DNA from: Scytolyngbya sp. HA4215-MV1
Lineage (GTDB): Bacteria; Cyanobacteriota; Cyanobacteriia; Leptolyngbyales; Leptolyngbyaceae
DNA length: 64,000 nt
Assembly (NCBI GenBank): GCA_019359045.1
Contig: JAHHIA010000004.1
Location: 186,001-250,000 of the forward strand
Direction of reading: 5' to 3'
The notes beneath the pieces were generated by a model that worked only from the letters and a program-made list of their open reading frames with translations, made no database searches and was not told the DNA's origin. Position numbers and translations under genes: made by a program. Below, piece after piece: positions 19,471 to 34,824 of the stretch. The number at the start of each line of letters is the position of its first letter. The first letter of the stretch is position 1.

Positions 19471-21289
19471 GTTTTAGTCCCCTTACGGGGAAGAGGTAAT
19501 GAAACGTGTGGCTGCTAACCGCGCTTGGTGTTCCTTTTCTGGTTTCAGTCCCCTTGCGGGGAAGTGGTGATGAAAGGTGAAAAGATTTTTGCTGAACCCA
19601 GCAACCTCTTGGTTGTTTCAGTCCCCTTGCGGGGAAGTGGTGATGAAAGATCGCTGGTTTTTGGTGCGTGAAGGTAGCGTTATAACCGTTTCAGTCCCCT
19701 TGCGGGGAAGTGGTGATGAAAGAAAGGAGAATTCCGGGAGACGGTTTCAGAAGTAATTCTGATTGGTTTCAGTCCCCTTGCGGGGAAGTGGTGATGAAAG
19801 GCAACTTCTTGTTAGTGACCTCATTAAATTACCAGCGGTTGTGTTTCAGTCCCCTTGCGGGGAAGTGGTGATGAAAGCCTTTTTACCCCAAATGGTTCAA
19901 GGTATACACTAGTTCAAAGTTTCAGTCCCCTTGCGGGGAAGTGGTGATGAAAGGTTGTCCAAGTTCAGAAATGCTAAACTGTGGAGTGAAACTGGTTTCA
20001 GTCCCCTTGCGGGGAAGTGGTGATGAAAGTTGGCTACGGTTACGGTTACGGTTACGGTTACAGTTTTTTGTTTCAGTCCCCTTGCGGGGAAGTGGTGATG
20101 AAAGGAGGGACTGATGCAGGCGGTTCGTGATAACCGTGGGCTGTTTCAGTCCCCTTGCGGGGAAGTGGTGATGAAAGTCATCGGACTCGAGAAGAGTATG
20201 AGGAGGATAAAAAACGTTTCAGTCCCCTTGCGGGGAAGTGGTGATGAAAGCGCCTCAACTAACAGAGGCAACTGTTTCTACGGTGTTTCAGTCCCCTTGC
20301 GGGGAAGTGGTGATGAAAGTTTCCTGGAACCAGCAACTTCAATGTGTCAGAGTATGGTAAGTTTCAGTCCCCTTGCGGGGAAGTGGTGATGAAAGTTATT
20401 ACCGCAGGCTTTACCTTGCTCTTTCTTATTACTGTTTCAGTCCCCTTGCGGGGAAGTGGTGATGAAAGGGGAGCGTCTCAGGGTGGTCTCAACAATGAGA
20501 ATCGTTTCAGTCCCCTTGCGGGGAAGTGGTGATGAAAGTTTCAGACCCAACAAATGCAGCATACCCAAGACTTGAGAGTTTCAGTCCCCTTGCGGGGAAG
20601 TGGTGATGAAAGACTTCTCATTTGTAAACTTTACCCCAGAAAGGACAATGACGTTTCAGTCCCCTTGCGGGGAAGTGGTGATGAAAGAACTCTGTGAGCT
20701 TTGGCTTCATTAATGTGGGAGGAGTTTCAGTCCCCTTGCGGGGAAGTGGTGATGAAAGCGTCGTACTATTGAACGTTTCGGTGGCGACCCAGAAGGGTTG
20801 CGTTTCAGTCCCCTTGCGGGGAAGTGGTGATGAAAGGCACAGTAAGGAGAAGTAGTATGCAGGGTGACTTTGGATCACGTTTCAGTCCCCTTGCGGGGAA
20901 GTGGTGATGAAAGGACATCTCCTTGCTGTGTGCCTATACGACTGCAAGTTTCAGTCCCCTTGCGGGGAAGTGGTGATGAAAGCCTCGGTGCCACTGCGGA
21001 TACGAACGGGGAGGTGAATCCCTACGCAGTTTCAGTCCCCTTGCGGGGAAGTGGTGATGAAAGTACTTCTTCCAAGTTTTGGGGTGCATTGATTATCTTT
21101 GTTTGTTTCAGTCCCCTTGCGGGGAAGTGGTGATGAAAGGGTATTGGCGTATTTTCTTTCTCCGTGTCTCTGACCGGAGGAGTTTCAGTCCCCTTGCGGG
21201 GAAGTGGTGATGAAAGACTTCTGATATGAGTAGGTTACTGACTTTCCCTAAAGTGTTTCAGTCCCCTTGCGGGGAAGTGGTGATGAAAG
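19471..21289 (-). CRISPR. CRISPR array, 25 repeats, 24 spacers
   Basis: Twenty-four identical 35-base repeats plus one degenerate copy (19471-19505, five mismatches), separated by spacers of 34-46 bases. Intact repeats start at 19542, 19615, 19688, 19766, 19843, 19919, 19995, 20070, 20143, 20216, 20285, 20361, 20434, 20504, 20578, 20653, 20724, 20802, 20879, 20948, 21029, 21105, 21182 and 21255. Read on the minus strand the repeat begins CTTTCATC, forms a CCCC-GCAA-GGGG hairpin and ends exactly eight bases later with ACTGAAAC, the classic Cas6 5' handle. The degenerate repeat at the left is then the leader-distal end. Cas6 and the type III-A operon are 13 kb away on the right. Confidence 0.97.
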
Positions 21290-21525
21290 GGTTGCCTTCT
21301 GAAAAGATTTCAGAGTGGGGCTTCCCAAGGGCGAATTTACACAGGTCTAATTTGCAATGAATTAGAGGAGGCTTAAGCACAGCTTGACTGAAAACGAGCT
21401 GACCAAAACTCTTGCCTGGTAAACCTTTTACAGAGGTCGACGAAGTTATGCGGTTTTCAAGGTTCGAGGGAGGGGTGTAAATCCCGCTCACTTCCCTATT
21501 ATGCTTGAACCAATTAAAAAGTCAA
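21290..21525 (-). promoter_or_regulatory. CRISPR leader with sigma-70-like promoter
   Basis: The 200-odd bases between the leader-proximal repeat (21255-21289) and cas2. On the minus strand, TTGACT (21520-21525) and CATAAT (21498-21503) are spaced 16 bases apart, giving a predicted transcription start near 21490 and a leader of about 200 bases. The -35 box lies inside one arm of the cas2 terminator hairpin. No protein-coding frame in this interval is credible. Confidence 0.65.
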
Positions 21526-21544
21526 TAGAAAATTCTCTATTGAC
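21515..21544 (-). terminator. Terminator downstream of cas2
   Basis: A perfect nine-base-pair inverted repeat (GTCAATAGA at 21521-21529, TCTATTGAC at 21536-21544) with a six-base loop; on the minus strand it is followed by TTTTTAATT. It is placed 67 bases after the cas2 stop. Its downstream arm doubles as the -35 region of the CRISPR leader promoter. Confidence 0.65.
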
Positions 21545-21610
21545 CTGTTTAGCTGGGAATCAAAGGGCTTTGTCCTTGTTTGTCCTGCTGTGTAGCGGTA
21601 GCAGGTTGTC

Positions 21611-21886
21611 TCAAACGATGTAGACGGCAGGTGGTGCTTGGGGCGGGGCGCTGCCCACCGTCAACGTTCGGGGGACTGCATCCACCGGAATCCAATAAAA
21701 CCGCACGTTATCCTCAGCAGGCTTCACCTGACGTTTCACCTGCGTGTACAAGGTCTTCATTTCTTGCAATGAAAGGAAACACTCAAACACGCTCTCTTGC
21801 ACTCGCCGACCATAACCTTCCAAGAAAGTGGCAAGGCGATCGCGGCGGCGATCGTCGGCAATGTCATACACCACAAGGACTAGCAT
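21611..21886 (-). CDS. cas2: CRISPR-associated Cas2 (orphan)
   Basis: A 91-residue Cas2, the dimeric ferredoxin-fold partner of Cas1 in spacer integration. MLVLVVYDIADDRRR gives the first strand with conserved Asp8, followed by LATFLEGYGRRVQESVFECFL and the strand NVRFYWIPVD. It lies between the array leader and unrelated genes. No cas1 is present anywhere in the window, so integration would need Cas1 supplied from elsewhere. The normal length and intact Asp argue against a pseudogene. Confidence 0.9.
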   Translation of the reverse strand: MLVLVVYDIADDRRRDRLATFLEGYGRRVQESVFECFLSLQEMKTLYTQVKRQVKPAEDNVRFYWIPVDAVPRTLTVGSAPPQAPPAVYIV

Positions 21887-22209: not shown

Positions 22210-22351
22210 AAGTGTTATATTCAATTGCACTCAGCTACTTTTAGACAGAATGGGTGTTGGGTCAGTGAAACAGAGGGGAGTAGATGAAGCAGATGGGAGA
22301 TGGATTGGGGTGATAGAGTAACTCCATGTCTGGCGTTGTTTGGAGTCTGTC

Positions 22352-23089
22352 ATGCTAGGGTCGATCGTCTGGTCTCCTTGCCCTGCCTGGATCGGGTGGC
22401 TTGCCCAAGCTTCACCCCCTCCCCCGGCGGCTCAGTCCGTGGATGCTGCCACCGTCGAATTGCTCAAAGGACAGTTTCAGTCGCTCACTACCAGCTTCAA
22501 CATCTACGTTGGGTTGCTCAGCGCTGTCACCGTGCTCTTTGTCGGGGTAGCTGCCTGGTTGTTTAAGCGCACCCTGAGCGAAGCCAAACAGGAAGTGGAT
22601 CAATTGGTCAAAGCAGAAGTGCGACGCACGATCGCTGAGAGCATCAAGAACCGGGTGGAGTATCTGGAGCAGATCCTGGAACGGGAGCAAGTTCCCAGTT
22701 TTGTCACAGTGGATTATGTGTTGCAAATGGCGGCAGGCACGTTGCCCAAAGAGTATCGCTTACTGAATGCCCGGTTTCCCCGCATCAAGCCGCGCAAGCT
22801 AGATAGCCGCAAGTTTACAGGCGATGTGGTGGTGCTGGATTTGGTCAACTATGTGCCAACGGGGAGTGAGTTGACCGAAGCGGAACTGGAACAGATTTTG
22901 CAAGAGACGATCGATAAGATGTCGCCAGAGTCGGTGCTGTCGGTTTATGTACGGGGACACTACAAGGCGATCGCAGCTTTGAGTCAGAAAGTGAATTACT
23001 ATACAGCGACCAATATTCCCACTCAGTTGTTGGGCAATGTGATCAATTCTGCTTATGTTGCCTATACGCTCCGAGATGCAGAGGAATAG
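22352..23089 (+). CDS. Membrane protein of unknown function in the CRISPR island
   Basis: A 245-residue protein. The ATG at 22352 has GGAG six bases upstream and is preferred to the TTG at 22340. A first hydrophobic segment (about 4-20) may be a signal, and a clear transmembrane helix lies near 47-66 (YVGLLSAVTVLFVGVAAWLF). A coiled coil of about 40 residues follows (LSEAKQEVDQLVKAEVRRTI). The C-terminal soluble domain (about 135-240) has strands such as DVVVLDLVNYVP and VLSVYVRGHYKAIAAL. I do not recognise the family. Its place between cas2 and TIR-SAVED makes it a candidate accessory, but this rests on position only. Confidence 0.6.
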   Translation: MLGSIVWSPCPAWIGWLAQASPPPPAAQSVDAATVELLKGQFQSLTTSFNIYVGLLSAVTVLFVGVAAWLFKRTLSEAKQEVDQLVKAEVRRTIAESIKNRVEYLEQILEREQVPSFVTVDYVLQMAAGTLPKEYRLLNARFPRIKPRKLDSRKFTGDVVVLDLVNYVPTGSELTEAELEQILQETIDKMSPESVLSVYVRGHYKAIAALSQKVNYYTATNIPTQLLGNVINSAYVAYTLRDAEE

Positions 23090-23203: not shown

Positions 23204-23632
23204 TCAATTGTGATTAATACTTGCCCCATTGGAGACAGCCATGTTTTGAGAAGAATTGCTGACCAAAGTCCCAGACGAAGCCGTTGCCGAGACTTGTTTT
23301 TTGACCCGGTTGTAACGACTGGGCGGTTTGCCGCCTGCCATCTCATATTCCTTACTATCTTTGCCATACATGGCAGCTACTGCACTGAGAATCCGCGACG
23401 ATAGCGCGGAGACCGATGCCTCGATTTCAGAAAATTCAATGCGGGTGCGATCGGCTTCGGCAAGGGCAGCATTATGCGTCTGTAAGCGGCTATCAGAAGA
23501 TTCGATCAAATCTGCATAATCTTTTAGCGTTAAGCCGTTGCCCAAGTCCAGGGTTGGATTAACCGATTGCAGCCCACGCAAGCGGGTTTGGGCTTTTTCT
23601 AAAATAGTAGAGCGACGTTTTTGATAAGCCAT
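23204..23632 (-). CDS. Conserved-looking hypothetical protein
   Basis: A 142-residue, mostly helical soluble protein. It begins MAYQKRRSTILEKAQTRLRG, has a central helix-rich part (DYADLIESSDSRLQTHNAALAEADRTR..) and a basic motif GGKPPSRYNRVKK at about 102-114, and ends in a low-complexity serine/asparagine tail. No named domain is apparent. It lies convergent with the membrane protein gene. Composition and length support a real gene. Confidence 0.6.
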   Translation of the reverse strand: MAYQKRRSTILEKAQTRLRGLQSVNPTLDLGNGLTLKDYADLIESSDSRLQTHNAALAEADRTRIEFSEIEASVSALSSRILSAVAAMYGKDSKEYEMAGGKPPSRYNRVKKQVSATASSGTLVSNSSQNMAVSNGASINHN

Positions 23633-23789: not shown

Positions 23790-24380
23790 TAGGACTTACG
23801 CAGAGAGATCCCCCAACCCCCTTAAAAAGGAGGCTTTCGGAGTTTCCCCCTTTTTAAGGCTATCGTGTACACACAAGTAATTAGTGATGTCGTTGAGTAG
23901 GTTGATCCCCCTAAATCTCCGCGCTGGCACGCCGCTGCGCTAGAAAAAAGGGGGACTTTGAAATCTGAAGCCCCCCTTTTCAAAGGGGGTTGGGGGGATC
24001 TCCAGGGTTTCGCCTTGAATCTGAGATTTGTGTGTACACCGTAGCTTTTTAAGGGGGGTTGGGGGGATCTCCAGGGGTTTCGCCTTGAATCTGAGATTTG
24101 TGTGTACACCGTAGCCTTTTTAAGGGGGTTGGGGGGATCTCCAGGGGTTTCGCCTTGAATCTGAGATTTGTGTGTACACCGTAGCCTTTCAAGAGGGGTT
24201 GGGGGGATCTCCAGGGGTTTCGCCTTGAATCTGAGATTTGTGTGTACACCGTAGCCTTTCAAGAGGGGTTGGGGGGATCTCCAGGGGTTTCGCCTTGAAT
24301 CTGAGATTTGTGTGTACACCGTAGCTTTTTAAGGGGGCAAGGAGGGATCAGGGTTGTAAGCTTCAAGTGCGTAAGTCCTA
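23790..24380. mobile_element. 591-bp element with 12-bp TIRs, ATTAA target duplication and internal 70-bp tandem repeats
   Basis: Terminal inverted repeats TAGGACTTACGC (23790-23801) and GCGTAAGTCCTA (24369-24380) are perfect, and ATTAA flanks both sides (23785-23789, 24381-24385). Removing the element restores a sequence that aligns with the intact repeat at 62990-63120, so it inserted into that older element. No transposase is encoded. The long minus-strand frame across it is a by-product of the tandem repeats. Confidence 0.8.
23984..24338. repeat. Five tandem copies of a 70-bp unit
   Basis: The marker TGTGTACACC recurs at 24031, 24101, 24171, 24241 and 24311. Each unit contains GGGGGGATCTCCAGG, CGCCTTGAATCTGAGATTTG and TGTGTACACCGTAGC. 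Since 70 is not a multiple of three, the apparent minus-strand protein is the same repeat read in three successive frames. Confidence 0.9.
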
Positions 24381-24572: not shown

Positions 24573-24983
24573 GTGAGCCTCAAAACTGGTTTTGAATGCC
24601 TGTTTCGGACACTCAGAAGCGATTTCGGACACCTCAGAAGCGATTTCGGACACCTCAGAAGCGATTTCAGACACCTCAAAAACCGTTTCGGACGCCTCAG
24701 AAGCGGTTTCAGACACCTCAGAAGCGATTGCAGACACCTCAAAAACGATTTCGGACACCTCAGAAGCGATTTCAGACACCCCAAAAACGATTTCGGACAC
24801 CTCAAAAACGGTTTCAGATACCTCAAAAACCGTTTCGGACACCTCAACAATGATTTTGGATGCCTCAACAATGATTTCGGATGCCTTGAGAAGAAGCTGA
24901 TGCAAGAGTGGATGCAAAAAAGCAATGCGATTTTAGATTTGATGCAAGATAATGAAGCGAAAGCTATTGGACCGCTTAGCTAG
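24573..24983 (+). CDS. Heptad-repeat (coiled-coil) protein upstream of TIR-SAVED
   Basis: A 136-residue frame starting at GTG. Residues about 14-108 are some 13 copies of a seven-residue repeat of the type LRSDFGH or LKNDFGH, encoded by a 21-base tandem repeat (24606-24889). Leucine and phenylalanine alternate at 4- and 3-residue spacing, the signature of a parallel coiled coil. A non-repetitive tail (KKLMQEWMQKSNAILDLMQD) follows. The stop is 15 bases before the TIR-SAVED ATG, suggesting co-translation. Because the unit length is a multiple of three, other frames on both strands are also open. I prefer this one for its non-repeat tail and its position. Confidence 0.5.
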   Translation: MSLKTGFECLFRTLRSDFGHLRSDFGHLRSDFRHLKNRFGRLRSGFRHLRSDCRHLKNDFGHLRSDFRHPKNDFGHLKNGFRYLKNRFGHLNNDFGCLNNDFGCLEKKLMQEWMQKSNAILDLMQDNEAKAIGPLS

Positions 24984-24998
24984 CTCCCAATTTTTGCC

Positions 24999-26219
24999 AT
25001 GACACCTGTGACCGTTTTCTTCTCCTATTCCCATCGCGATGAGAAACTGCGCGATAAGCTGGCACTGCATTTGGCACTGTTGCAGAAGCAGGGCGTGATC
25101 CAGTCCTGGCACGATCGCAAAATCATGGCAGGGATGGAATGGGCACAGGCGATCGATGATAATCTCAACACTGCCGAAATCATTTTGCTGTTGGTCAGTG
25201 ACAACTTTTTGGCATCAGACTATTGCTACGACATTGAGATGCAACGGGCAATGGAGCGCCATGCAGCCCAAGAAGCCCTGGTGGTGCCAATTATTCTCAA
25301 GCCTGTGGACTGGAGTGGGGCGCCCTTTGGTAAACTCCAGGCATTTCCCAAGGATGCCAAACCCGTGACCAAGTGGAGCAATCGGGATGAGGCGTTTATG
25401 AATATTGCTCAGGGGATTCGCACGGTGGCAAACACTCTGAGAGAACGCCCTCCAACGGTTTCAAAGGCTGCCCCAGTGACCGCTAAGTTGCAAATTCATG
25501 GCTGGAAACACCAAGCTGCTGATCAGCTACCAGATGTAGAACTGGATTGGACACCCTACTTTAATCTGGATGCCAGACCCCAACGCCAGGTGGCTGATCT
25601 CCAAACTTGGCATACGATTTTGCTGCCCCAACTGAAACAAGTCCGAGATCAATTAACAGGAGGACGAGCCAACCTAACTCTCGATATTCAAGGACTGTTA
25701 CCCCTCTCTGCTGCTTTGATCATTGGCACTGTTTTTCAAGATGCGGCTGGCTATACACTGCAAACTACCCAACGCACAGTGGGAAACAATCAGATTTGGC
25801 GATCGAATGCCAGTCCTTCCAGTTTGAAATTTAAAGTTGTTGAAGAACACGGGACGCCAGGCGATGATCTGTTGATGATTTTTGCGATTAGCGGCTCATC
25901 TTGGGCAGAGATGGGCACTGTTTACACCCACTCCAAGGAACAATTTAACGCAATGATCTATGTTGAACCAGAAACGGGGACTGGAGAACAATCTTTGGGG
26001 TCAGATGCTGATGCGATCGCGCTTGCTCTTCATGCGAAAACATTGATTCAGCACTACCGGGATCAATACCAAGCGAAACGCATTCACTTAATTTTCTATA
26101 CGCCAATGGGATTTTGCCTGTTTTTAGGCAGTCGCTTGAGATTAGTCGGGGATGTTATTCCTTATGAACGGGTTGCTTATGGTATCTATCAGCCCTCTGC
26201 TGAGCTGCAAACGGGGTGA
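24999..26219 (+). CDS. TIR-SAVED effector (putative cyclic-oligonucleotide-activated NADase)
   Basis: A 406-residue two-domain protein. The TIR domain (about 1-145) has VFFSYSHRDEKLRDKLALHL, a SWHDRKI box and SDNFLASDYCYDIEM, whose Glu80 aligns with the catalytic glutamate of NAD-cleaving TIRs. The SAVED domain (about 160-403) shows LLPLSAALIIGTVF, DADAIALALHAKTLI and the typical end RIHLIFYTPMGFCLFLGSRL. SAVED domains bind cyclic tri- or tetranucleotides, and TIR-SAVED proteins are known CBASS effectors that oligomerise and deplete NAD+. No CD-NTase lies nearby. The next plus-strand gene is cyclase-competent cas10, so Cas10-made cyclic oligoadenylate is the inferred activator. Confidence 0.88.
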   Translation: MTPVTVFFSYSHRDEKLRDKLALHLALLQKQGVIQSWHDRKIMAGMEWAQAIDDNLNTAEIILLLVSDNFLASDYCYDIEMQRAMERHAAQEALVVPIILKPVDWSGAPFGKLQAFPKDAKPVTKWSNRDEAFMNIAQGIRTVANTLRERPPTVSKAAPVTAKLQIHGWKHQAADQLPDVELDWTPYFNLDARPQRQVADLQTWHTILLPQLKQVRDQLTGGRANLTLDIQGLLPLSAALIIGTVFQDAAGYTLQTTQRTVGNNQIWRSNASPSSLKFKVVEEHGTPGDDLLMIFAISGSSWAEMGTVYTHSKEQFNAMIYVEPETGTGEQSLGSDADAIALALHAKTLIQHYRDQYQAKRIHLIFYTPMGFCLFLGSRLRLVGDVIPYERVAYGIYQPSAELQTG

Positions 26220-26513: not shown

Positions 26514-28817
26514 ATGCCCAATGCCTCTGACTACGCCGCCTTACAAGTTATCCACGAGGCGATCGCGATTCTCGCAACTTGGTCAGGAACCTCGTTCTCG
26601 CTGCCCCGATCTCAACCCATTGAGGCAGTTCAGTCATTTGTTGCATCAGCCAAGGAAATTCTGAATTGGTCTGACCAGGCTCCAGCAGCGCTACAAATTG
26701 TGTTTGACCGAATTCATCTGGAGCATGGGGCAACCCCTGCTTACAAATATCGTCCTGCCTGGGCACTGGAAAGGCAAGGAAATGAGCAAACGCCTCGCAT
26801 TCCTTACCCCCAAACCTTGGAACAAGCGGAAACAGGCTTTGAGCAGTTACAGGCTGACATTCGGCAGGCGATCGCGCACCTGAATCCCGATAATTTGGCT
26901 CAATTGACCTTATTTTTAGAGAAATTTGGTTCTCACTTGAGTGTCGGTGACTCTGACATTGCTTTGATTGACCAGGCAAAATCGACTGCCGCGATCGCGG
27001 CGGCTCTTTCACAATCCTCTGATAAACAACTGGCACTGGTCGGCGGCGATTTGATGGGCGTGCAAAAGTTCATCTACACCATTTCGTCCGAAGGGGCGCT
27101 AAAATCCTTGCGGGCCCGCAGCTTTTACCTGGAATTGGCAACTGAAGAAGTGGTGCAGCAACTTTTGACCAGGCTCAACCTACCCCGCACCAATGTGATC
27201 TATGCCGGAGCCAGCAAGTTTTATTTGCTCGTTGCTGCGACGAATGGGTTAGCGGGAATCTTGCAGCAAATTCAAAAAGAGTTTAATGATTGGTTGTTGG
27301 AGACGTTTCAGCGCAAGGTGTTTCTGGCGATCGGGCACACGCCTTTTCCGATAGAGTCCCTACAACCTAATGCAAATGCTAAACAGCCTGCCCTGGCTGA
27401 AATTTGGCAAAAGGTCAATGACCAACTGACTGATCAAGCCTTTCGTAAGTTTGAACATCAGTTGGATCGGTTGCTGGTTCCCCAACGGAGCCATCAACCC
27501 TGCAAAGTTTGCCACCGGGATGATGTTGAAAGATTGACTCGTTTAAATCGTGAAGATCCCGGATCTGTAGAAGCCTGTACCATGTGTGCGCGAATGTTTC
27601 GGCTGGGCAGGCAGTTGCTCAGGGTTAACGCAATTGTACGATCGTCGCGGCGGAACCTGGCACCAAAACGGTTACGCTTCAAACTTAAATCTGGAACAAT
27701 CTATCACTATTTATTTGATAATCCGCAGGAAGCACTTCAAATTGCTGATGACGATGATTTAATTTTGTTGGTTAATGATTGGGACATTTGTCACTATCAA
27801 ACGTCACAGGTTACGCCTCTGTTATATGCCAACTACGCACAACCTAGCAAAGTAGACTTTGAGGAAAATGACCAGAAGAGACCTGGCACCATGCAGGCAG
27901 AAGAGTTTGCCAAAGAAGCAAAAGGGATTGAGCGAGTGGGCTATCTCCGAATGGATGTCGATCGCCTCAGCCAGATTTTTTCTAAAGGATTAGGGCAGGC
28001 ATATACCTTGCCTCGGTTAGCTTGTTTGTCTCGCCAGATGACCTACTTCTTCAAGGTATATCTCAATAGCTTAGCTGCACATAGACAAAGCAACCTACCA
28101 GAAACCCATCAGGCGTTGATGCTTGATGCAAATCATCAGCCCCATCCACGTCCCAATCTATTGTTTATCTATGCTGGCGGTGATGATTTATTCGTCAGTG
28201 GTGCCTGGAATGAAGTGGTGGAATTTGCTTTTGATGTGTATCAGAGTTTCCGCGCCTACACTGGCAATCATCCCGACATCACCTTATCTGCGGGGATTTG
28301 CATTACTGGAGCCAAGTTCCCGCTCTATCAAGCCGCAGAGGAAGCCGGAGATGTTGAAAAAGCAGCGAAAGGCAATGGACGCGATAGCTTAGGGCTATTG
28401 AATGCAGCATTGAAATGGGATGAATGGTTGGGCAATTGGAATCTTGCTTCTCTGAATCTAAACGATCGTGCTTATCTAAATTCTGTGGTCGAACCTGCGC
28501 TGTTTGGGGTATTCCCTTTTATCAAACACCTCTACGGAGAAGTGGGACAAGGCTATACCCGCAGTTTTGTTCGTAACTTGCTCAATACTGCCCAGATGCA
28601 AGAAGAAAAAATTAAGGAAGCCAAGAAAAAGCAGCCCGATCAGGTGCAAGATATTCGATATTATTTGCACTTGCCCAAAGTTGCCTACACCCTTGCCCGA
28701 CTGCCTGCCAGAATGCTAGATAATGCCGATTTTCGACAGTCCCTGATGAGTCCTTATAATGCGCCCTATTTTCGGGCGATCGCCACCTGGATCGAACTCC
28801 TCAACCGCAACTCCTAA
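26514..28817 (+). CDS. csm1: Type III-A Cas10 (Csm1), cyclase-competent, HD motifs degenerate
   Basis: The 767-residue large subunit of the Csm complex. Csm1 hallmarks are GGDLMGVQKFIYTISSEGAL (about 178-197) with SLRARSFYLELAT, a zinc ribbon with Cys330, Cys333, Cys355 and Cys358, a Palm-1 strand GYLRMDVDRLSQIF (476-489) and Palm-2 with the cyclase motif GGDD at 555-558. The palm domains convert ATP to cyclic oligoadenylates when target RNA is bound. The N-terminal HD nuclease looks dead: His14-Glu15 stands where HD is expected, and DQ (153-154) replaces DH in the later motif. It heads the operon, two bases before the Uma2 gene. Confidence 0.93.
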   Translation: MPNASDYAALQVIHEAIAILATWSGTSFSLPRSQPIEAVQSFVASAKEILNWSDQAPAALQIVFDRIHLEHGATPAYKYRPAWALERQGNEQTPRIPYPQTLEQAETGFEQLQADIRQAIAHLNPDNLAQLTLFLEKFGSHLSVGDSDIALIDQAKSTAAIAAALSQSSDKQLALVGGDLMGVQKFIYTISSEGALKSLRARSFYLELATEEVVQQLLTRLNLPRTNVIYAGASKFYLLVAATNGLAGILQQIQKEFNDWLLETFQRKVFLAIGHTPFPIESLQPNANAKQPALAEIWQKVNDQLTDQAFRKFEHQLDRLLVPQRSHQPCKVCHRDDVERLTRLNREDPGSVEACTMCARMFRLGRQLLRVNAIVRSSRRNLAPKRLRFKLKSGTIYHYLFDNPQEALQIADDDDLILLVNDWDICHYQTSQVTPLLYANYAQPSKVDFEENDQKRPGTMQAEEFAKEAKGIERVGYLRMDVDRLSQIFSKGLGQAYTLPRLACLSRQMTYFFKVYLNSLAAHRQSNLPETHQALMLDANHQPHPRPNLLFIYAGGDDLFVSGAWNEVVEFAFDVYQSFRAYTGNHPDITLSAGICITGAKFPLYQAAEEAGDVEKAAKGNGRDSLGLLNAALKWDEWLGNWNLASLNLNDRAYLNSVVEPALFGVFPFIKHLYGEVGQGYTRSFVRNLLNTAQMQEEKIKEAKKKQPDQVQDIRYYLHLPKVAYTLARLPARMLDNADFRQSLMSPYNAPYFRAIATWIELLNRNS

Positions 28818-28819
28818 CC

Positions 28820-29383
28820 ATGACCACCACGACCACCCCCACCAAACTGACCTTTGAAGAGTATCTTGCCTACGACGATGGTACCGATAACCGTTATGAA
28901 CTGGAAGATGGAGCACTGATTCTAATGAATCCTCCCCCAGGTCGCCATGCCCTGATTATTTATTTTCTAATCAATACATTTATCGCTGAGATTACCAGAC
29001 TTCAGCTATCCTGGGCAGCGATGCAATTGATTGGTGTCCGAACAGCACCCCGTCGCTCTCGTTTACCTGATATCTGCGTCGTCCCTGTTGAGGAAATTCG
29101 AGACAAACTTGATGTATCCGCAGTGATTGAGTCTGGCGCAATATTGGCAGTTGAGATTGTTAGCCCTGATTCTGTCAAACGAGACTACCGCTTTAAGCGG
29201 GCGGAGTATGCTTCTTTTGGTATTCCCGAATACTGGATTGTCGATCCGCTCTCCCAAAAAGTCACCCTCCTTTTGCTGGTCGAGGGACTTTACGAAGAAA
29301 CGGTTTATCAAGGTGAAGACCCGGTTCAGTCTCAAATCTTTCCAGAATTGACGCTTAAAGTTAACCAAATCCTGCAACCTTAG
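28820..29383 (+). CDS. Uma2-family PD-(D/E)XK protein inside the csm operon
   Basis: A 187-residue DUF820/Uma2 protein, a restriction-endonuclease-like fold abundant in cyanobacteria. Visible: FEEYLAYDDGTDNRYELEDG at the N-terminus, LPDICVVP with Asp84, and ILAVEIVSPDS with Glu112, followed by basic residues and FGIPEYWIVDP. It starts two bases after the csm1 stop, so it is translated with the Cas10 operon. Uma2 proteins are scattered and sometimes hitchhike near other genes, but this tight placement between csm1 and csm2 is suggestive. Nuclease activity is unproven for most members. Confidence 0.85.
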   Translation: MTTTTTPTKLTFEEYLAYDDGTDNRYELEDGALILMNPPPGRHALIIYFLINTFIAEITRLQLSWAAMQLIGVRTAPRRSRLPDICVVPVEEIRDKLDVSAVIESGAILAVEIVSPDSVKRDYRFKRAEYASFGIPEYWIVDPLSQKVTLLLLVEGLYEETVYQGEDPVQSQIFPELTLKVNQILQP

Positions 29384-29458: not shown

Positions 29459-29950
29459 ATGTTTGAACGACCCCAAAGACCTAATCATGAACCTGTGACA
29501 CAATCTCAATCTGAAGACATTGCTGATCAAATGTCTAAAAAAATTAGTCAACTAGCAGGATTGTCTGACTATGGAACTCGTGAGTTAGTTGAGGAGACTC
29601 AAAAGCTTGGCAAAAAGCTTGCTGACAAGGGCCTTAAGACAACTCAAATTCGTAAATTTTTGGATGCTGTCAATCAAATTAAGGCAAAGCTAAAAGTAAC
29701 TCAAAAACTAGAGGATATTGAAGAGATTAAGTCAGAACTTCCTCTACTTCGTGCAAAACTTGCCTATGCCGCTGCTCGCCAGCAGAAAAATAACGATCCT
29801 GGACCTGTTGAACCACTACGACAAGTTTTAGATGTGGCACTACAAAAAATACGCAAAGAGAGTGACTTCTTTTCAAAGGACTTTACGCGGCTTGGTCAGC
29901 TTATAGAATCAATCATTGCCTATCACAGATATGCGGGAGGAAAAGACTAA
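29459..29950 (+). CDS. csm2: Csm2, small subunit of the type III-A complex
   Basis: A 163-residue helical protein. The recognisable Csm2 region is KGLKTTQIRKFLDAVNQIKA, then ELPLLRAKLAYAAAR and the C-terminal DFTRLGQLIESIIAYHRYAGG, which closely follows the family pattern. Csm2 forms the inner filament that contacts target RNA. The N-terminal 30 residues are an extra polar extension. The stop TAA overlaps the csm3 ATG by one base. Its presence, rather than cmr5, sets the subtype as III-A (III-D also has csm2 but a different RAMP set). Confidence 0.88.
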   Translation: MFERPQRPNHEPVTQSQSEDIADQMSKKISQLAGLSDYGTRELVEETQKLGKKLADKGLKTTQIRKFLDAVNQIKAKLKVTQKLEDIEEIKSELPLLRAKLAYAAARQQKNNDPGPVEPLRQVLDVALQKIRKESDFFSKDFTRLGQLIESIIAYHRYAGGKD

Positions 29951-30927
29951 TGACAGCTACAACAGATGAACAACCTCAAAAGTCCTTGTTTGGAAAGGTT
30001 CGGATTGAAAGCACTTTATTGGTTGAAACAGGTTTACATATTGGTGGTGGAAATGAAACACTTAACATTGGTGGATTAGATAAACCAATTGTTCGCGATC
30101 CGATCACTCGCTATCCTTACTTGCCAGGATCTTCGATTAAAGGAAAGTTACGTTCAATTCTGGAGCGAATCAAAAGCCGTCAATTGAACCGTCGAGGAAG
30201 TCGAGATACTTATCGATATGAAAGCGATGATCTGGTTAGTGGCATCACTGAAATTGATGGTAATCTTATCCCCTTTGAGGGAGCAAAAACCTGTCCTGTA
30301 TCTCGCATTTTTGGCTCAACAGGTGCTAAATGTTGGGTCAAAACAGATGTTGCAAATCAAGAAAACTTGCTTGAGAAAGATGAACAAGGAAATATAAAGA
30401 ATGATACAAAAACTATCAATCGTGAGCAATATGCCTGGATTAATGGGCGTAATTTTCCAGCACGCTTAATAGTACGAGATTGTCACTTGAAAGAATCTTC
30501 CATTCAGAAGCTCAAGCAGGTAGATACAGGGCTTTACATGACCGAGTGGAAGTTTGAAAACGGCATCGATCGCATTACCTCTGCCGCCAACCCCCGGCAA
30601 GTGGAGCGGGTTCCCGCTGGCTCAGAATTCAAGTTTGAGTTGGTCTACACCATTGAGAACGAAGACCAGGTGATTGAAGACTTGAAAAATCTGGCGATCG
30701 CTCTGGCAATTCTGGAAGACGATGCCCTGGGCGGTCACGGCTCGCGCGGCTACGGCAAAATCAAGTTCCAGCAGATTCAGTTTTTCTATCGCAGCCTTGC
30801 CCAATATCAAGGGATTGGCAGTGGCACCGTAGATTGGACGACCCCTCGTATCACATTTGCCGACACCACGGCACTGCTGGGTAGTTTTAGCGACATCCAG
30901 CAGCAGTTGTTGCCTGGAGGCAGCTAG
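29950..30927 (+). CDS. csm3: Csm3, backbone RAMP with target-RNA cleavage site
   Basis: A 325-residue Csm3, the repeated backbone subunit that cuts target RNA every six nucleotides. The diagnostic start is GLHIGGGNETLNIGGLDKPI, then VRDPITRYPYLPGSSIKGKL. Asp44 in GGLD aligns with the catalytic Asp of characterised Csm3 proteins, so RNase activity is probably retained. The glycine-rich C-terminal loop GGHGSRGYGKIKF is present. It is about 100 residues longer than the usual 220, owing to an insert around 85-190. The stop is one base before the csm4 start. Confidence 0.92.
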   Translation: MTATTDEQPQKSLFGKVRIESTLLVETGLHIGGGNETLNIGGLDKPIVRDPITRYPYLPGSSIKGKLRSILERIKSRQLNRRGSRDTYRYESDDLVSGITEIDGNLIPFEGAKTCPVSRIFGSTGAKCWVKTDVANQENLLEKDEQGNIKNDTKTINREQYAWINGRNFPARLIVRDCHLKESSIQKLKQVDTGLYMTEWKFENGIDRITSAANPRQVERVPAGSEFKFELVYTIENEDQVIEDLKNLAIALAILEDDALGGHGSRGYGKIKFQQIQFFYRSLAQYQGIGSGTVDWTTPRITFADTTALLGSFSDIQQQLLPGGS

Positions 30928-30928
30928 C

Positions 30929-31990
30929 ATGAGCCGTTGGCAACTGGTCAAACTCGATTTTGGACGCAATCCCGTTCACTTTGGTGAAGTGGGCATTGGC
31001 ATGGAAGAATCGAGCGAACGGGCTTATTCCGATACGCTATTTAGCGCCTGGGTGAGTTCCTACGCGCGGCTATTCGGGGGTGAGGCTGTAGAGCAGTTAT
31101 TTTCCCAATTTCCCCAACCAGAGCGATCGCCTCGGCTAGAACCACCCTTTCGCCTCAGTTCCACCTTCATCTATCACGGAGAGACCTACTATCTTCCACG
31201 TCCGATCAAACCTCCAAAAGGTTATCCAACCGAGAATCTAGCCTTCGCAAAAGAGTATAAAAAGTTGGACTATTTGCCTTTGAGTGTTTGGCAACGGTGG
31301 TATCAAGGAAAAGGTTTTACCAACTCAGATACAAACTCTGATCGAGCCGAACTTGAACTGAAGGTGAAACAGTCTAAAACGGGGGGAGCACTGGAGCGGG
31401 CACAAACCTTTGGCTATAGCAAAGCCTTTGAGTCACAGCGCATTCCCAAAGTCAGTCTCGATCGCACCACCCGTGCCAGCAATTTTTACCATGTGGGCTT
31501 TGTGCAATTTCAACCAGAGGCAGGGTTATATTTTCTGATTCACTTTCCCACGCCTGATCCGGCTCTCGAAACCCGACTGGCATCGGCACTCAGTCTGCTG
31601 GGTGAGGATGGGATTGGCGGAGAGCGATCGAGTGGGGCTGGACGCTTTACTGCAACCTGGCATGATCTCGATAAAAACTGGGGTAAGGTTGTAGGTTTTA
31701 AGCAACCCAATGCCTACAGCTTGATTAGTCTACTCTGGGAGTACCCCTTTGCCTCTGAGTATTTGCAAGGAGCCAGCTATGCCCTCCGAGAACGTAGCGG
31801 TTGGATTGTTTCGCCCGTGTCTGGTCAACAAGCGCGACGGCAGTCAGTGCAGATGTTTACCGAAGGATCTGTGTTTTCGCAACCCATCGGTGGGCTGTTA
31901 GCCAAGGTCACGCCAGAAAAGTTCAAAGCACACCCGATCTATCGCAGCGGGATTAGTCTCAGCCTCCCCATTCAACTCGCAGTACCATAG
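30929..31990 (+). CDS. csm4: Csm4, 5'-handle-binding RAMP
   Basis: A 353-residue Csm4, the subunit that caps the crRNA 5' handle and docks Cas10. MSRWQLVKLDFGRNPVHFGE is a typical start and follows a strong GGAGG site at 30916-30920, so I use the ATG at 30929 rather than an upstream one overlapping csm3. Further hallmarks are a DTLFSAWVSSYARLFG helix, GLYFLIHF, and the glycine-rich GEDGIGGERSSGAGRF, plus SLPIQL at the C-terminus. It completes the csm1-2-3-4 order with the Uma2 gene inserted. Confidence 0.92.
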   Translation: MSRWQLVKLDFGRNPVHFGEVGIGMEESSERAYSDTLFSAWVSSYARLFGGEAVEQLFSQFPQPERSPRLEPPFRLSSTFIYHGETYYLPRPIKPPKGYPTENLAFAKEYKKLDYLPLSVWQRWYQGKGFTNSDTNSDRAELELKVKQSKTGGALERAQTFGYSKAFESQRIPKVSLDRTTRASNFYHVGFVQFQPEAGLYFLIHFPTPDPALETRLASALSLLGEDGIGGERSSGAGRFTATWHDLDKNWGKVVGFKQPNAYSLISLLWEYPFASEYLQGASYALRERSGWIVSPVSGQQARRQSVQMFTEGSVFSQPIGGLLAKVTPEKFKAHPIYRSGISLSLPIQLAVP

Positions 31991-32051: not shown

Positions 32052-32678
32052 ATGTCATTTAGCCAATACCAAAATTTAGGCGAGACGATTCAAGCATTCC
32101 AGATTCGCTATACAGAAGCCAATTTTATTCAGGAAGTTGCCTTTCCCATCTCTGACTATTTTCGACAAGATTGGGACTTGATGCTTGAAGAAGGTGTTGT
32201 GGATAACTCAGAGTTTGCGATCTGCCAAAATCTCATTTATCCCGTTTTGAAGGAAGTCTGGAAAGCTTATCGCAGTAAATTTCTGCTATGGACTCAAAAA
32301 TTTTTCAACTATAATGCCAGCCTATCTGGATTTCCTGAATATATCCTGGCACGGCGATCGCCCTTAGGCAAAGTTGTATTCGACAAGCCCTACTTTATTT
32401 TAGTCGAAGCCAAGCAAGATAACTTTGACGCTGGGTGGGGGCAATGTTTGGCGGAAATGATAGCAGCCCAGCAATTAAATGGTGAACTCAATATTACCGT
32501 CTACGGAATTGTTTCTAATGGGGATGTTTGGCAGTTTGGCAAACTAGAAGATAGCATTTTTACTCACAATAAAACTTTCTACACTATTCAAGCCCTGGAG
32601 CAATTATTTTCTGCGGTGAATTATCTCTTTCAGCAATGTGAAATCCAACTGGATCAGAAAATTCCTCTGTCTATCTGA
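32052..32678 (+). CDS. PD-(D/E)XK nuclease-like hypothetical between csm4 and csm5
   Basis: A 208-residue protein of a type common in cyanobacteria. The central motif is FPEYILARRSPLG, then PYFILVEAKQDNF (Glu119, Lys121 in the E-x-K position) and GWGQCLAEMIAA, matching the restriction-endonuclease-like core with a Q-containing helix. The terminal GIVSNGDVWQFGKL strand pair is also seen in this group. GAGG precedes the ATG by about seven bases. It interrupts the csm4-csm5 order, lying 61 bases after csm4. It may be a DNase partner or a passenger; no function is established. Confidence 0.75.
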   Translation: MSFSQYQNLGETIQAFQIRYTEANFIQEVAFPISDYFRQDWDLMLEEGVVDNSEFAICQNLIYPVLKEVWKAYRSKFLLWTQKFFNYNASLSGFPEYILARRSPLGKVVFDKPYFILVEAKQDNFDAGWGQCLAEMIAAQQLNGELNITVYGIVSNGDVWQFGKLEDSIFTHNKTFYTIQALEQLFSAVNYLFQQCEIQLDQKIPLSI

Positions 32679-32733
32679 GCAACATCCTCCTCACCAATTT
32701 CACCAACCCAACCTGCTCACCCCCGCGAACGCT

Positions 32734-34026
32734 ATGATTGCCGCTTCTGAAATAACTCTGACCAAGCGCCAGATTCTAGATTCTGCGACGATTCAACTAA
32801 CCAGTCCGATGTTGCACATTGGTTCCGAAGTGCAGCGGCTCAGTCCATTTGAATATGTGGCAACTCCTGAATTTGTCTATCAACCTAATGCAGAAGTATT
32901 AGCCCGATCGCTCTACAAACAAGGTCGCTTACCCGATTATCTAAACGCGATTAAGGAGAGGCGATCAATTCTGCCAATTCTGAAGCAAGCCTTTGGTGAA
33001 GAAGACTGGGCAAAAGCACAGGATGCTGATGGTCAGCCAATTTTCCCAAAAGTAACCCGCAGTTTGTGCTGGACGGATCATCAACGCATTACTGATCTCA
33101 GACCGATGATTCGCAATGGCTATGGACAACTCTACATTCCCGGTTCGTCAATTAAGGGAGCAATTCGCACGGCGATCGCCTATTACTTGCTGAAACATGC
33201 CGATCAGTTCCAAGTACCTAAGCAGAAACGAGTGAGCGCTATTGAACGTCAGCTTCAAGAGAAAATGGGTAGCCTCAAGCAAAAAGCAAAATTTGCTGAT
33301 GATGCCCTGTTTATGGATGCCTTATTCAGTGATTTTCAGCTAGAGGGAGATCGCAGTCAGGTCAAAAATGGCCCCAATACTGATTTCATGCGGGCAGTTA
33401 AGGTCTCTGACTCGGAGCCATTGAGCGAGCGCAAAATTCCCCTAAAGAATGGGAAACATCGGTTTGAGAACTTATCGATCACGGCTGAAGTGCTGGTTTC
33501 GAGTCGTTATGCAGACTATCGTGCCAAATATCGCGCTTCTATTTATGCGGAGTTAGCCCGCAATGTGCAGACTACGTTTACGATCGCGCTCGATCGCCCT
33601 TTGCTGGAGCAGATGCAACATCAGCAAGGCATGAAAATTCCCTTTCATTCGATCGCCGAGCTGCTGCAAATTTGTCAGGCTTTTGCTCAAGACCAATGGG
33701 ATGCAGAGCATGACTATTGGCAGGATGTGCAAAACAATCCCAATCAGCGCGATCAAAATGGCACGGTTCGCAATTTAGATTTTGCTGCAATGCGTGACTT
33801 CTATGAGGCAACCACCTGTCCCTATGGGCTGCGGTTGGGTTGGGGCAGCGGCATGAATGGGACAACGGTGGGGTTATTGCTGGACGAGCAACTGCGATCG
33901 CAAGTACGCGATACCTGTGGTATCAAGGCTCCCGGCTTTGAAGCACCCAAATCACGGCGAACGATCGTCAATTCCAAAGGAGAGATCCGGTTTGTACCGG
34001 GATGGATCAACTTCAAGGTGCTGTAA
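32734..34026 (+). CDS. csm5: Csm5, 3'-end RAMP
   Basis: A 430-residue Csm5, the cap subunit at the 3' end of the crRNA. MLHIGSEVQRLSPFEYVATP near the N-terminus, then GYGQLYIPGSSIKGAIRTAI and the C-terminal GLRLGWGSGMNGTTVGLLL are family signatures. I choose the ATG at 32734 (MIAASEI); an earlier in-frame ATG at 32638 would overlap the previous gene by 41 bases and add a non-homologous leader. No good Shine-Dalgarno is seen at either. It is followed after three bases by cas6. Confidence 0.9.
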   Translation: MIAASEITLTKRQILDSATIQLTSPMLHIGSEVQRLSPFEYVATPEFVYQPNAEVLARSLYKQGRLPDYLNAIKERRSILPILKQAFGEEDWAKAQDADGQPIFPKVTRSLCWTDHQRITDLRPMIRNGYGQLYIPGSSIKGAIRTAIAYYLLKHADQFQVPKQKRVSAIERQLQEKMGSLKQKAKFADDALFMDALFSDFQLEGDRSQVKNGPNTDFMRAVKVSDSEPLSERKIPLKNGKHRFENLSITAEVLVSSRYADYRAKYRASIYAELARNVQTTFTIALDRPLLEQMQHQQGMKIPFHSIAELLQICQAFAQDQWDAEHDYWQDVQNNPNQRDQNGTVRNLDFAAMRDFYEATTCPYGLRLGWGSGMNGTTVGLLLDEQLRSQVRDTCGIKAPGFEAPKSRRTIVNSKGEIRFVPGWINFKVL

Positions 34027-34029
34027 ATA

Positions 34030-34824
34030 ATGCTGATCCGCTCAACTTGGACTTTGCAGGTCACTGAACCGACAACGCTGCCTCGCACCTACGGGTTAGA
34101 GGTAGTCAAGTTTCTACACCAGCGGTTGGGAATAGAGATGGGAGCGGAGGCGATTCCTTCCACAACCTGTTCAGGAATATTGGGTTCGGTTACGGCAAGC
34201 GGCGATTTTGTGACGTTTCATCCAGAGGAGTTTTATCAACTGACGCTGTCTGGGTTGCAGGAGACGGCATCTAAGGCGATCGCGGCGCTGACTTTTCCCT
34301 CGGATGCGAATGCCAATCAAATATTGCAACTGTTAGGGGCAACCTTTTGGGTCAGCGATCGCGAAGACGAAGTAACTCACTACGATACGCTATACCATAC
34401 GCGAGTTGCCGCAGAACCTGAACCCATCAAACGGTTCGATCTAAAGTTTATTACCCCTACATCCTTTGCTCAAAATCGTATTCATCTCCCCCTTCCCGTT
34501 CCTTCACTGATGTTTCGGAGTTGGCTAGAACGCTGGAATCACTTTGCTCCGGTGTATCTTGGCGGGGATGACCTCATTGGCTATCTTAGTGAAACGATCG
34601 CAGTCACCCGCCACCATATTCAGACGCGTCCGGTGATGATTCACAGTGGCAGGGTGACTGGATTTACGGGATCGGTTTCGCTGCAAAGTCTTACTTCTGC
34701 TGATCCATTGATTGCCAATGTCACAAACTTGCTGGTCGAGTATGCACAATTCTCTGGTACAGGGATGAAAACACGATTGGGGATGGGGCAAACTCAGTTA
34801 AATCAAACGGTTCAGCCCTCCTAA
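34030..34824 (+). CDS. cas6: Cas6 pre-crRNA endoribonuclease
   Basis: A 264-residue Cas6, which cuts the CRISPR transcript at the base of each repeat hairpin, leaving an eight-base handle. The ferredoxin-like start MLIRSTWTLQVTEPTTLPRT, the GLEVVKFLHQRLG helix (His30 is a candidate catalytic residue), the LKFITPTSF segment and the C-terminal glycine-rich loop FSGTGMKTRLGMGQ identify the family. It is the last gene of the effector operon and converges on cbiG/cobJ, with 39 bases between stops. It fits the repeat, whose minus-strand form ends hairpin plus ACTGAAAC. Confidence 0.88.
   Translation: MLIRSTWTLQVTEPTTLPRTYGLEVVKFLHQRLGIEMGAEAIPSTTCSGILGSVTASGDFVTFHPEEFYQLTLSGLQETASKAIAALTFPSDANANQILQLLGATFWVSDREDEVTHYDTLYHTRVAAEPEPIKRFDLKFITPTSFAQNRIHLPLPVPSLMFRSWLERWNHFAPVYLGGDDLIGYLSETIAVTRHHIQTRPVMIHSGRVTGFTGSVSLQSLTSADPLIANVTNLLVEYAQFSGTGMKTRLGMGQTQLNQTVQPS

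Follow-up and report, generated by a model that had tools for sequence, protein, structure and literature searches.

The window, by which we mean the whole 64,000-nucleotide stretch of Scytolyngbya sp. HA4215-MV1 DNA that was analysed, carries a type III-A CRISPR locus whose large-subunit gene, cas10/csm1, lies at 26514..28817. Unless a minus strand is given, all genes named here run on the plus strand. To the left of cas10 lies a CRISPR array (19542..21314; 24 repeats seen in 19500-21700, a 35-nt repeat with a spacing of 69-81, possibly extending further) and cas2 (21611..21886, minus strand; profile matches), while the two cas1 genes of the genome both sit on another contig. These are followed by a gene for a predicted membrane protein with a long helix and a receiver-like domain, here called Cam2-like (22340..23089; PADLOC and fold search), and by a TIR-SAVED effector gene (24999..26219, 406 aa; profile matches), which ends 294 bp upstream of the cas10 start. 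The same region holds a minus-strand gene for a 142-aa protein with no Pfam match (23204-23632), homologues of which, 64-65% identical, occur near cas10 in loci L002 and L017, as well as two repeat tracts upstream of the TIR-SAVED gene: a 70-bp repeat in 5 copies (23976-24337) and a 21-bp repeat in 13 copies with several frames open (24603-24881).

Downstream of cas10, a Uma2-family gene (28820..29383; Pfam) precedes csm2 (29459..29950; profile matches), csm3 (29950..30927; profile match and alignment) and csm4 (30857..31990), whose family match runs from residue 28 and whose true start is probably near 30938. A gene for a CRISPR-associated PD-(D/E)xK protein (32052..32678, 208 aa; PDLC01472) is placed between csm4 and csm5 (32638..34026, start uncertain; profile matches), and the operon continues with cas6 (34030..34824), which scores above the Pfam cut-off and below the NCBIfam cut-off. 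In other loci the place between csm5 and cas6 can itself be occupied, for instance by an annotated protein kinase in a Nostoc plasmid Csm operon (L042, 16151-17434) or by a protein with AriA and PtuA-type ATPase matches (L007, 16678-18225).

The 767-aa product of cas10 is a Csm1 by both profile and fold. It matches TIGR02578 with 533.2 bits against a curated cut-off of 170, its frame has Pfam matches to Palm2 and Csm1_B, solved Csm1 chains match it by sequence, and a fold search returned 4uw2 (Z 29.1, rmsd 3.5, 520 residues aligned); the C-terminal half of its AF2 model is weak (mean pLDDT 64.5). The cyclase motif GGDD at residues 555-558 (28176..28187) and the ribbon of four cysteines, C330, C333, C355 and C358 (27501..27587), are intact, GGDD at the position given in the initial annotation. 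Among the 44 aligned members of its clade, the window protein included, all four cysteines as well as D557 and D558 are invariant, and G555 is a glycine in 43. With a profile score above the cut-off, the GGDD motif and ribbon, and a csm2-csm5 operon all present, we assign the protein to the Cas10/Csm1 family of type III-A.

What sets the protein apart from nuclease-bearing Csm1s is its shortened N-terminal domain (residues 1-177, 26514..27044), which the alignment shows to be without an HD motif or an HH motif. The window protein was aligned with cyanobacterial relatives and plasmid Csm1s, among which five HD-bearing proteins served as controls (L036, from the same phylum but another family; L038, from Thermus thermophilus HB8; L039, L041 and L046), while L045 was excluded from the control count as its annotated start may be wrong. 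At the place of the HDxGK motif, where the five controls have [LF]HDxGK, the window protein has VIHEAIAIL (residues 12-20, 26547..26573). Further along, in DIALIDQAKSTAAIA (residues 148-162, 26955..26999), it reads D153-Q154 where all five controls have D-H or E-H; residue 153 is an aspartate in 44 of 44 clade members and residue 154 a histidine in none, the window protein counting in both. Both substitutions had been noted in the initial annotation, which described the site as one of degenerate motifs, and both are borne out by the alignment. The idea of a site that was merely mutated did not hold: about 50 residues that carry the next histidines of the controls, including an HH pair found in all five, are absent as well, and the palm begins at residue 166-174 as compared with 226-269 in solved Csm1s, that is, 60-96 residues earlier. 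The TIGR02578 alignment begins only at profile position 91, which leaves the opening section of that profile unmatched, and in a profile search against solved structures the alignment started only at profile position 52 or later.

Could some activity survive in this remnant? A non-canonical metal site formed by H14, E15, D153 and other residues might retain weak HD nuclease activity, given that H14 and E15 lie near the old HD place and that D153 is kept throughout the clade. Yet H14 is unique to the window protein (the other aligned members have Q in 39 cases, L in one, R in one and a gap in two) and is thus no relic of an HD motif, the second histidine is missing in every member, and the segment with the remaining histidines is gone; we therefore regard such a site as extremely improbable. 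A search of the window protein and its relatives for intact HD residues at any other place up to residue 160 found none, and the 12 extra upstream residues of the stop-to-stop frame hold no HD either. Judged by the presence of an N-terminal HD motif together with further HD-site histidines, the protein falls outside the HD-bearing Cas10s. The domain does not appear to have moved to a neighbouring gene, as no ORF of at least 80 aa lies wholly between TIR-SAVED and cas10, and the HD proteins near relatives (HD_4 in L042 and L029; HD_3, with a weak YfbR-like match, in L022) match general HD-domain families. Nor does a second Cas10 stand in, since the whole genome contains a single Cas10 palm2 match. 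Taken together, the sequence evidence strongly supports the loss of the Cas10 HD nuclease and fits the earlier proposal that single-stranded DNA cleavage by this subunit has been lost; what remains of the N-terminal domain is probably a structural scaffold.

The loss is shared by the relatives of the window protein. Searches of the phylum and class found Csm1 above the family cut-off in 21 of 386 genomes, and a similarity search with the window protein (E 1e-40) found it in 32 of 388 genomes, its own included. When 51 frames, with the window protein outside the set, were tested for HDxGK, the motif occurred in two, L036 and L038, and in none of the 44 cyanobacterial relatives whose N-terminus could be read (47 relatives minus L002, L014 and L090, which are cut short). 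Three of these relatives (L003, L013 and L030) have an isolated HD dipeptide in a different context, and two (L015 and L091) an isolated HH. L078 and L081 stood outside the motif-pattern test, their starts being cut in the alignment with the first 16 residues uncovered. Copies of the window (L001, L092, L060) and of L043 (L084) were dropped from the counts, and G558, G436, G602, G491, G534, G594 and G553 were taken for known loci on the strength of frame length and identity alone. A tree built from 51 proteins places 45 cyanobacterial Csm1s in a single clade with a support of 100/99, the very long outgroup branches being a reason for caution. On sequence grounds, HD loss is thus old, and it is fixed in the cyanobacterial Csm1 lineage as sampled. 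It probably happened more than once in Csm1, as three HD-less proteins outside the clade (L040, L044 and L047) also have neither the HD motif nor the DH histidine.

This distribution bears directly on the role of the neighbouring effector. The initial annotation had seen the HD loss as consistent with a dedicated TIR effector, and a TIR-SAVED gene does adjoin cas10; however, the loss spans the whole clade and TIR-SAVED is found in only three of the 51 clade loci (the window, L017 and, as another type, L002), which means that the loss predates the present effector neighbours of cas10 and that TIR-SAVED was not its cause. Neither is TIR a lone dedicated effector, since the locus also has the Cam2-like, Uma2 and PD-(D/E)xK genes. 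The TIR-SAVED protein combines both domains in one chain (PF13676, 4e-14; PF18145, 1.5e-24), its homologue in L017 occupies the same place at 63% identity, and its E80 aligns with the Glu of the Cat1 TIR domain that we take to be catalytic. The Cam2-like protein matches PADLOC Mem_02 (1e-40) and, on a weak model, has a receiver-like fold match (4myr, E 2e-4); its homologues precede cas10 in L004 and L005 and adjoin NucC in L007. As for RNA cleavage, D44 of Csm3 (30079-30081) aligns with the Thermus Csm3 aspartate, the established RNase residue, and D34 has this role in Serratia Csm3 (PMC13060164). A departure from this pattern occurs in Halocatena (L044, 10116-10853), where Csm3 has Asn at the place of the RNase Asp and the locus also encodes a SAVED protein and an HD-motif-less Cas10.

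In our view, then, the window Csm1 is very likely a type III-A large subunit that has lost its HD deoxyribonuclease and acts through RNA cutting and signalling. Upon target RNA binding, Palm2 with its GGDD motif would make a cyclic oligoadenylate, probably cA3, in response to which TIR-SAVED would assemble and destroy NAD+; Csm3 would meanwhile cut the target RNA, and the Cam2-like protein would probably respond to this messenger as a further effector. Immunity by Csm3 cleavage and second-messenger signalling, as first proposed, is hence still the best reading of the locus in the light of GGDD, D44, TIR-SAVED and the Serratia precedent, with the qualification that one of the other locus proteins (Cam2-like, Uma2 or PD-(D/E)xK) may cleave DNA.

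That qualification leads to an alternative in which a putative DNase encoded in the operon, Uma2 or the PD-(D/E)xK protein encoded after csm4, has replaced the HD domain and is recruited to cut DNA upon target RNA binding. The window Uma2 is a clear family member (PF05685, 112.7 bits against a cut-off of 27) with the conserved D, E and K present, and its gene starts 2 nt after the cas10 stop. The arrangement recurs: of the 47 HD-less cyanobacterial loci in which cas10 and csm2 are both visible, 17 have a same-strand Uma2 gene in between, and by estimated starts 15 of these 17 begin no more than 22 nt from the cas10 stop, with a 4-nt overlap in four cases. Locus L013 (12197-13430) has two tandem Uma2 genes in this slot. 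On the Cas10 tree, the presence of Uma2 (15 of 43 taxa) requires 7 changes against a shuffle mean of 12.5, a value as low as this being reached in 1 of 1000 shuffles. Relatives of the window Uma2, 66-69% identical, are also found in other type III loci, with Csx1, Csx3-AAA and a III-D-type Cas7 as neighbours in L097, a III-D-type Cas7 in L101, and Csx1 together with a PD-(D/E)xK protein of the same family in L100, where the core genes lie outside the scan. L098 and L099 adjoin each other in a single genome and together have Csx1 and Csx21; a III-D-type Cas7 lies in L098, and in L099 there are Csx10 and a Cas10 with no HD within its first 160 residues. Homologues of the PD-(D/E)xK protein, 57-67% identical, similarly occur near related Cas10 genes in seven loci (L002, L013, L014, L024, L079, L086 and L089), in L086 and L089 directly upstream of cas10.

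Against this stands the fact that a Uma2 gene is absent from the other 30 of the 47 HD-less loci, and that the family is abundant, with 49 matches in the window's genome. The residues D84, E112 and K126, which we take from the family to be catalytic, are kept in all 18 slot copies, but equally so in 20 of 20 free copies; slot and free copies are mixed in the Uma2 tree, where the slot copies form no clean clade, and the view that the embedded gene simply arose once is unsupported. Copies as close or closer to the window Uma2 (L093-L096, 70-75% identical) have no CRISPR gene among their scanned neighbours, L094, L095 and L096 being at contig ends, and for more distant ones (L102-L112, 53-58% identical) a scan that covered one neighbour each of L102 and L103 brought no CRISPR gene to light. 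Moreover, Pfam finds no further domain on the window Uma2, and thus no messenger sensor. Microcystis III-B systems have already been reported to include Uma2 among their accessory genes (PMC11855584), and no functional test of it was found in the portions of the open-licence literature covered (PMC11855584 and PMC9067536). On balance we hold the replacement of HD by an operon DNase to be rather improbable, and the loss of the nuclease in favour of RNA cutting and signalling remains our preferred reading.

Which messenger this signalling would use can be approached through neighbouring genes. We surveyed the 51 clade loci with the effector proteins found in them as queries (E 1e-10), supplemented by PADLOC or Pfam scans of selected neighbours. 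The window belongs to a sublineage of ten loci (the window, L002, L003, L004, L005, L007, L008, L014, L016 and L017, the last two being contigs from the same MAG). Trees of either half of the protein support its core (C-terminal half, 0.997; N-terminal half, 0.986), but L007 and L008 group with it in full-length trees only (92/96; 0.948). Eight of the ten loci carry NucC (L007, L008), TIR-SAVED, CHAT-SAVED (L003) or a Cam2-like gene (the window, L004, L005, L007, L008), while in L014 and L016 none of these four was seen. CARF or Csx3 was seen in none of the ten, of which only five (the window, L002, L003, L007 and L008) span at least 17 kb; the other five lie on 4-12 kb stretches, where such an absence means little. 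In the window's genome Csx1_CARF had no match, and the control of the corresponding Csx3 search was silent. The other 41 clade loci present the opposite picture, with CARF or Csx3 in 36 (34 by the survey, plus L083 and L085 by the neighbour scan) and none of the four sublineage effectors in any.

NucC is activated by cA3 (PMC8682760), as CHAT-SAVED is reported and Cam2 predicted to be (PMC11229360), and the TIR-SAVED of CBASS likewise responds to cA3 (PMC9704534). Given these activators and the tendency of type III loci toward one messenger each (PMC11229360), cA3 is favoured here, and the neighbouring genes suggest that the window sublineage signals by it. The competing view is that the TIR-SAVED of the window is switched by cA4, which its Cas10 would make like most of the clade. 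The CARF and Csx3 genes of most relatives speak for this, as do a Halocatena type III locus in which TIR-SAVED occurs together with Csx1 and a tentative assignment of cA4 to CRISPR TIR-SAVED by Hoikkala et al. (both PMC11229360). It fits poorly, however, with the NucC, CHAT-SAVED and Cam2-like genes of the sublineage, with the activator of the CBASS homologue and with the observation that characterised cA4 ring nucleases do not go with effectors of other messengers (PMC12409355). We consider cA4 signalling at this locus unlikely, if worth keeping in view.

A possible correlate of the messenger is found in Cas10 itself. Residue 183 and the contiguous residues 233-235 distinguish the six sublineage members of full length from 38 other proteins. 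The latter three lie in the Palm1 hairpin, between strands 228-232 and 235-241 of the predicted model, and read ASK in the window (27210..27218). Among the 47 clade proteins in which this place can be seen, nine have ASK, namely those of eight sublineage loci, the window included, and of L078, and the remaining 38 have GGN. We infer that this hairpin has a role in product choice. As the ASK cases mostly share descent, a Fisher test overstates the association between ASK and effector, and a fully clean link between ASK and cA3 is broken by L078 (8917-11307), which combines the ASK hairpin with Csx3-AAA and CARF-TM and so agrees with the cA4 view. A broader scenario, in which an embedded Uma2 replaced the DNase of cyanobacterial HD-less type III systems (III-A here; III-D-like in L097-L099 and L101) and the sublineage moved from cA4 to cA3 through a change from GGN to ASK, is distinctly doubtful as a whole; we treat the Uma2 replacement and the messenger switch as leads only.

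How does the locus compare with known systems? HD-less signalling Cas10 proteins, also in company with TIR effectors such as Cat1 and TIR-SAVED, are already known and common: a recognisable HD domain was reported in 39% of 1113 type III loci and in 65% of III-A (PMC11229360), and taken alone the finding in the window is accordingly ordinary. Its interest lies rather in the lineage, which, with HD loss fixed in the sampled members, offers a ready-made natural panel of Csm systems that have no HD nuclease. Two questions thereby become directly testable, namely whether an embedded Uma2 restores DNA cleavage and which Cas10 residues choose between cA3 and cA4. The type III-A Csm of Serratia marcescens likewise pairs a degenerate HD site with an intact cyclase; it makes mainly cA3, and interference relies on both its cyclase and NucC, with Csm3 contributing in part (PMC13060164). 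There the effector is NucC, whereas the window has TIR-SAVED and a Cam2-like protein, a Uma2 gene in the operon and a messenger that we infer from its neighbours. The Cmr system of Vibrio metoecus also has an HD-less Cas10 with a cyclase, for which cA3 was measured (PMC8682760), but it is a type III-B system with NucC, in contrast to the type III-A system with TIR-SAVED described here. The effector of the window shares its TIR and SAVED domains with the CBASS TIR-SAVED (PMC9704534), and TIR-SAVED was reported in seven type III loci, which came from an examination of HD-less, cyclase-positive loci (PMC11229360). Cat1 (CARF-TIR) is another TIR NADase that works with type III, with CARF as sensor and cA4 as activator, unlike the SAVED sensor of the window, and only about 10% of its homologues go with an intact-HD Cas10 (PMC12162218). 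Finally, Microcystis III-B clusters 4 and 5 also carry Uma2 within the operon, placed before cmr5 in cluster 4, while in the window it stands before csm2 (PMC11855584).
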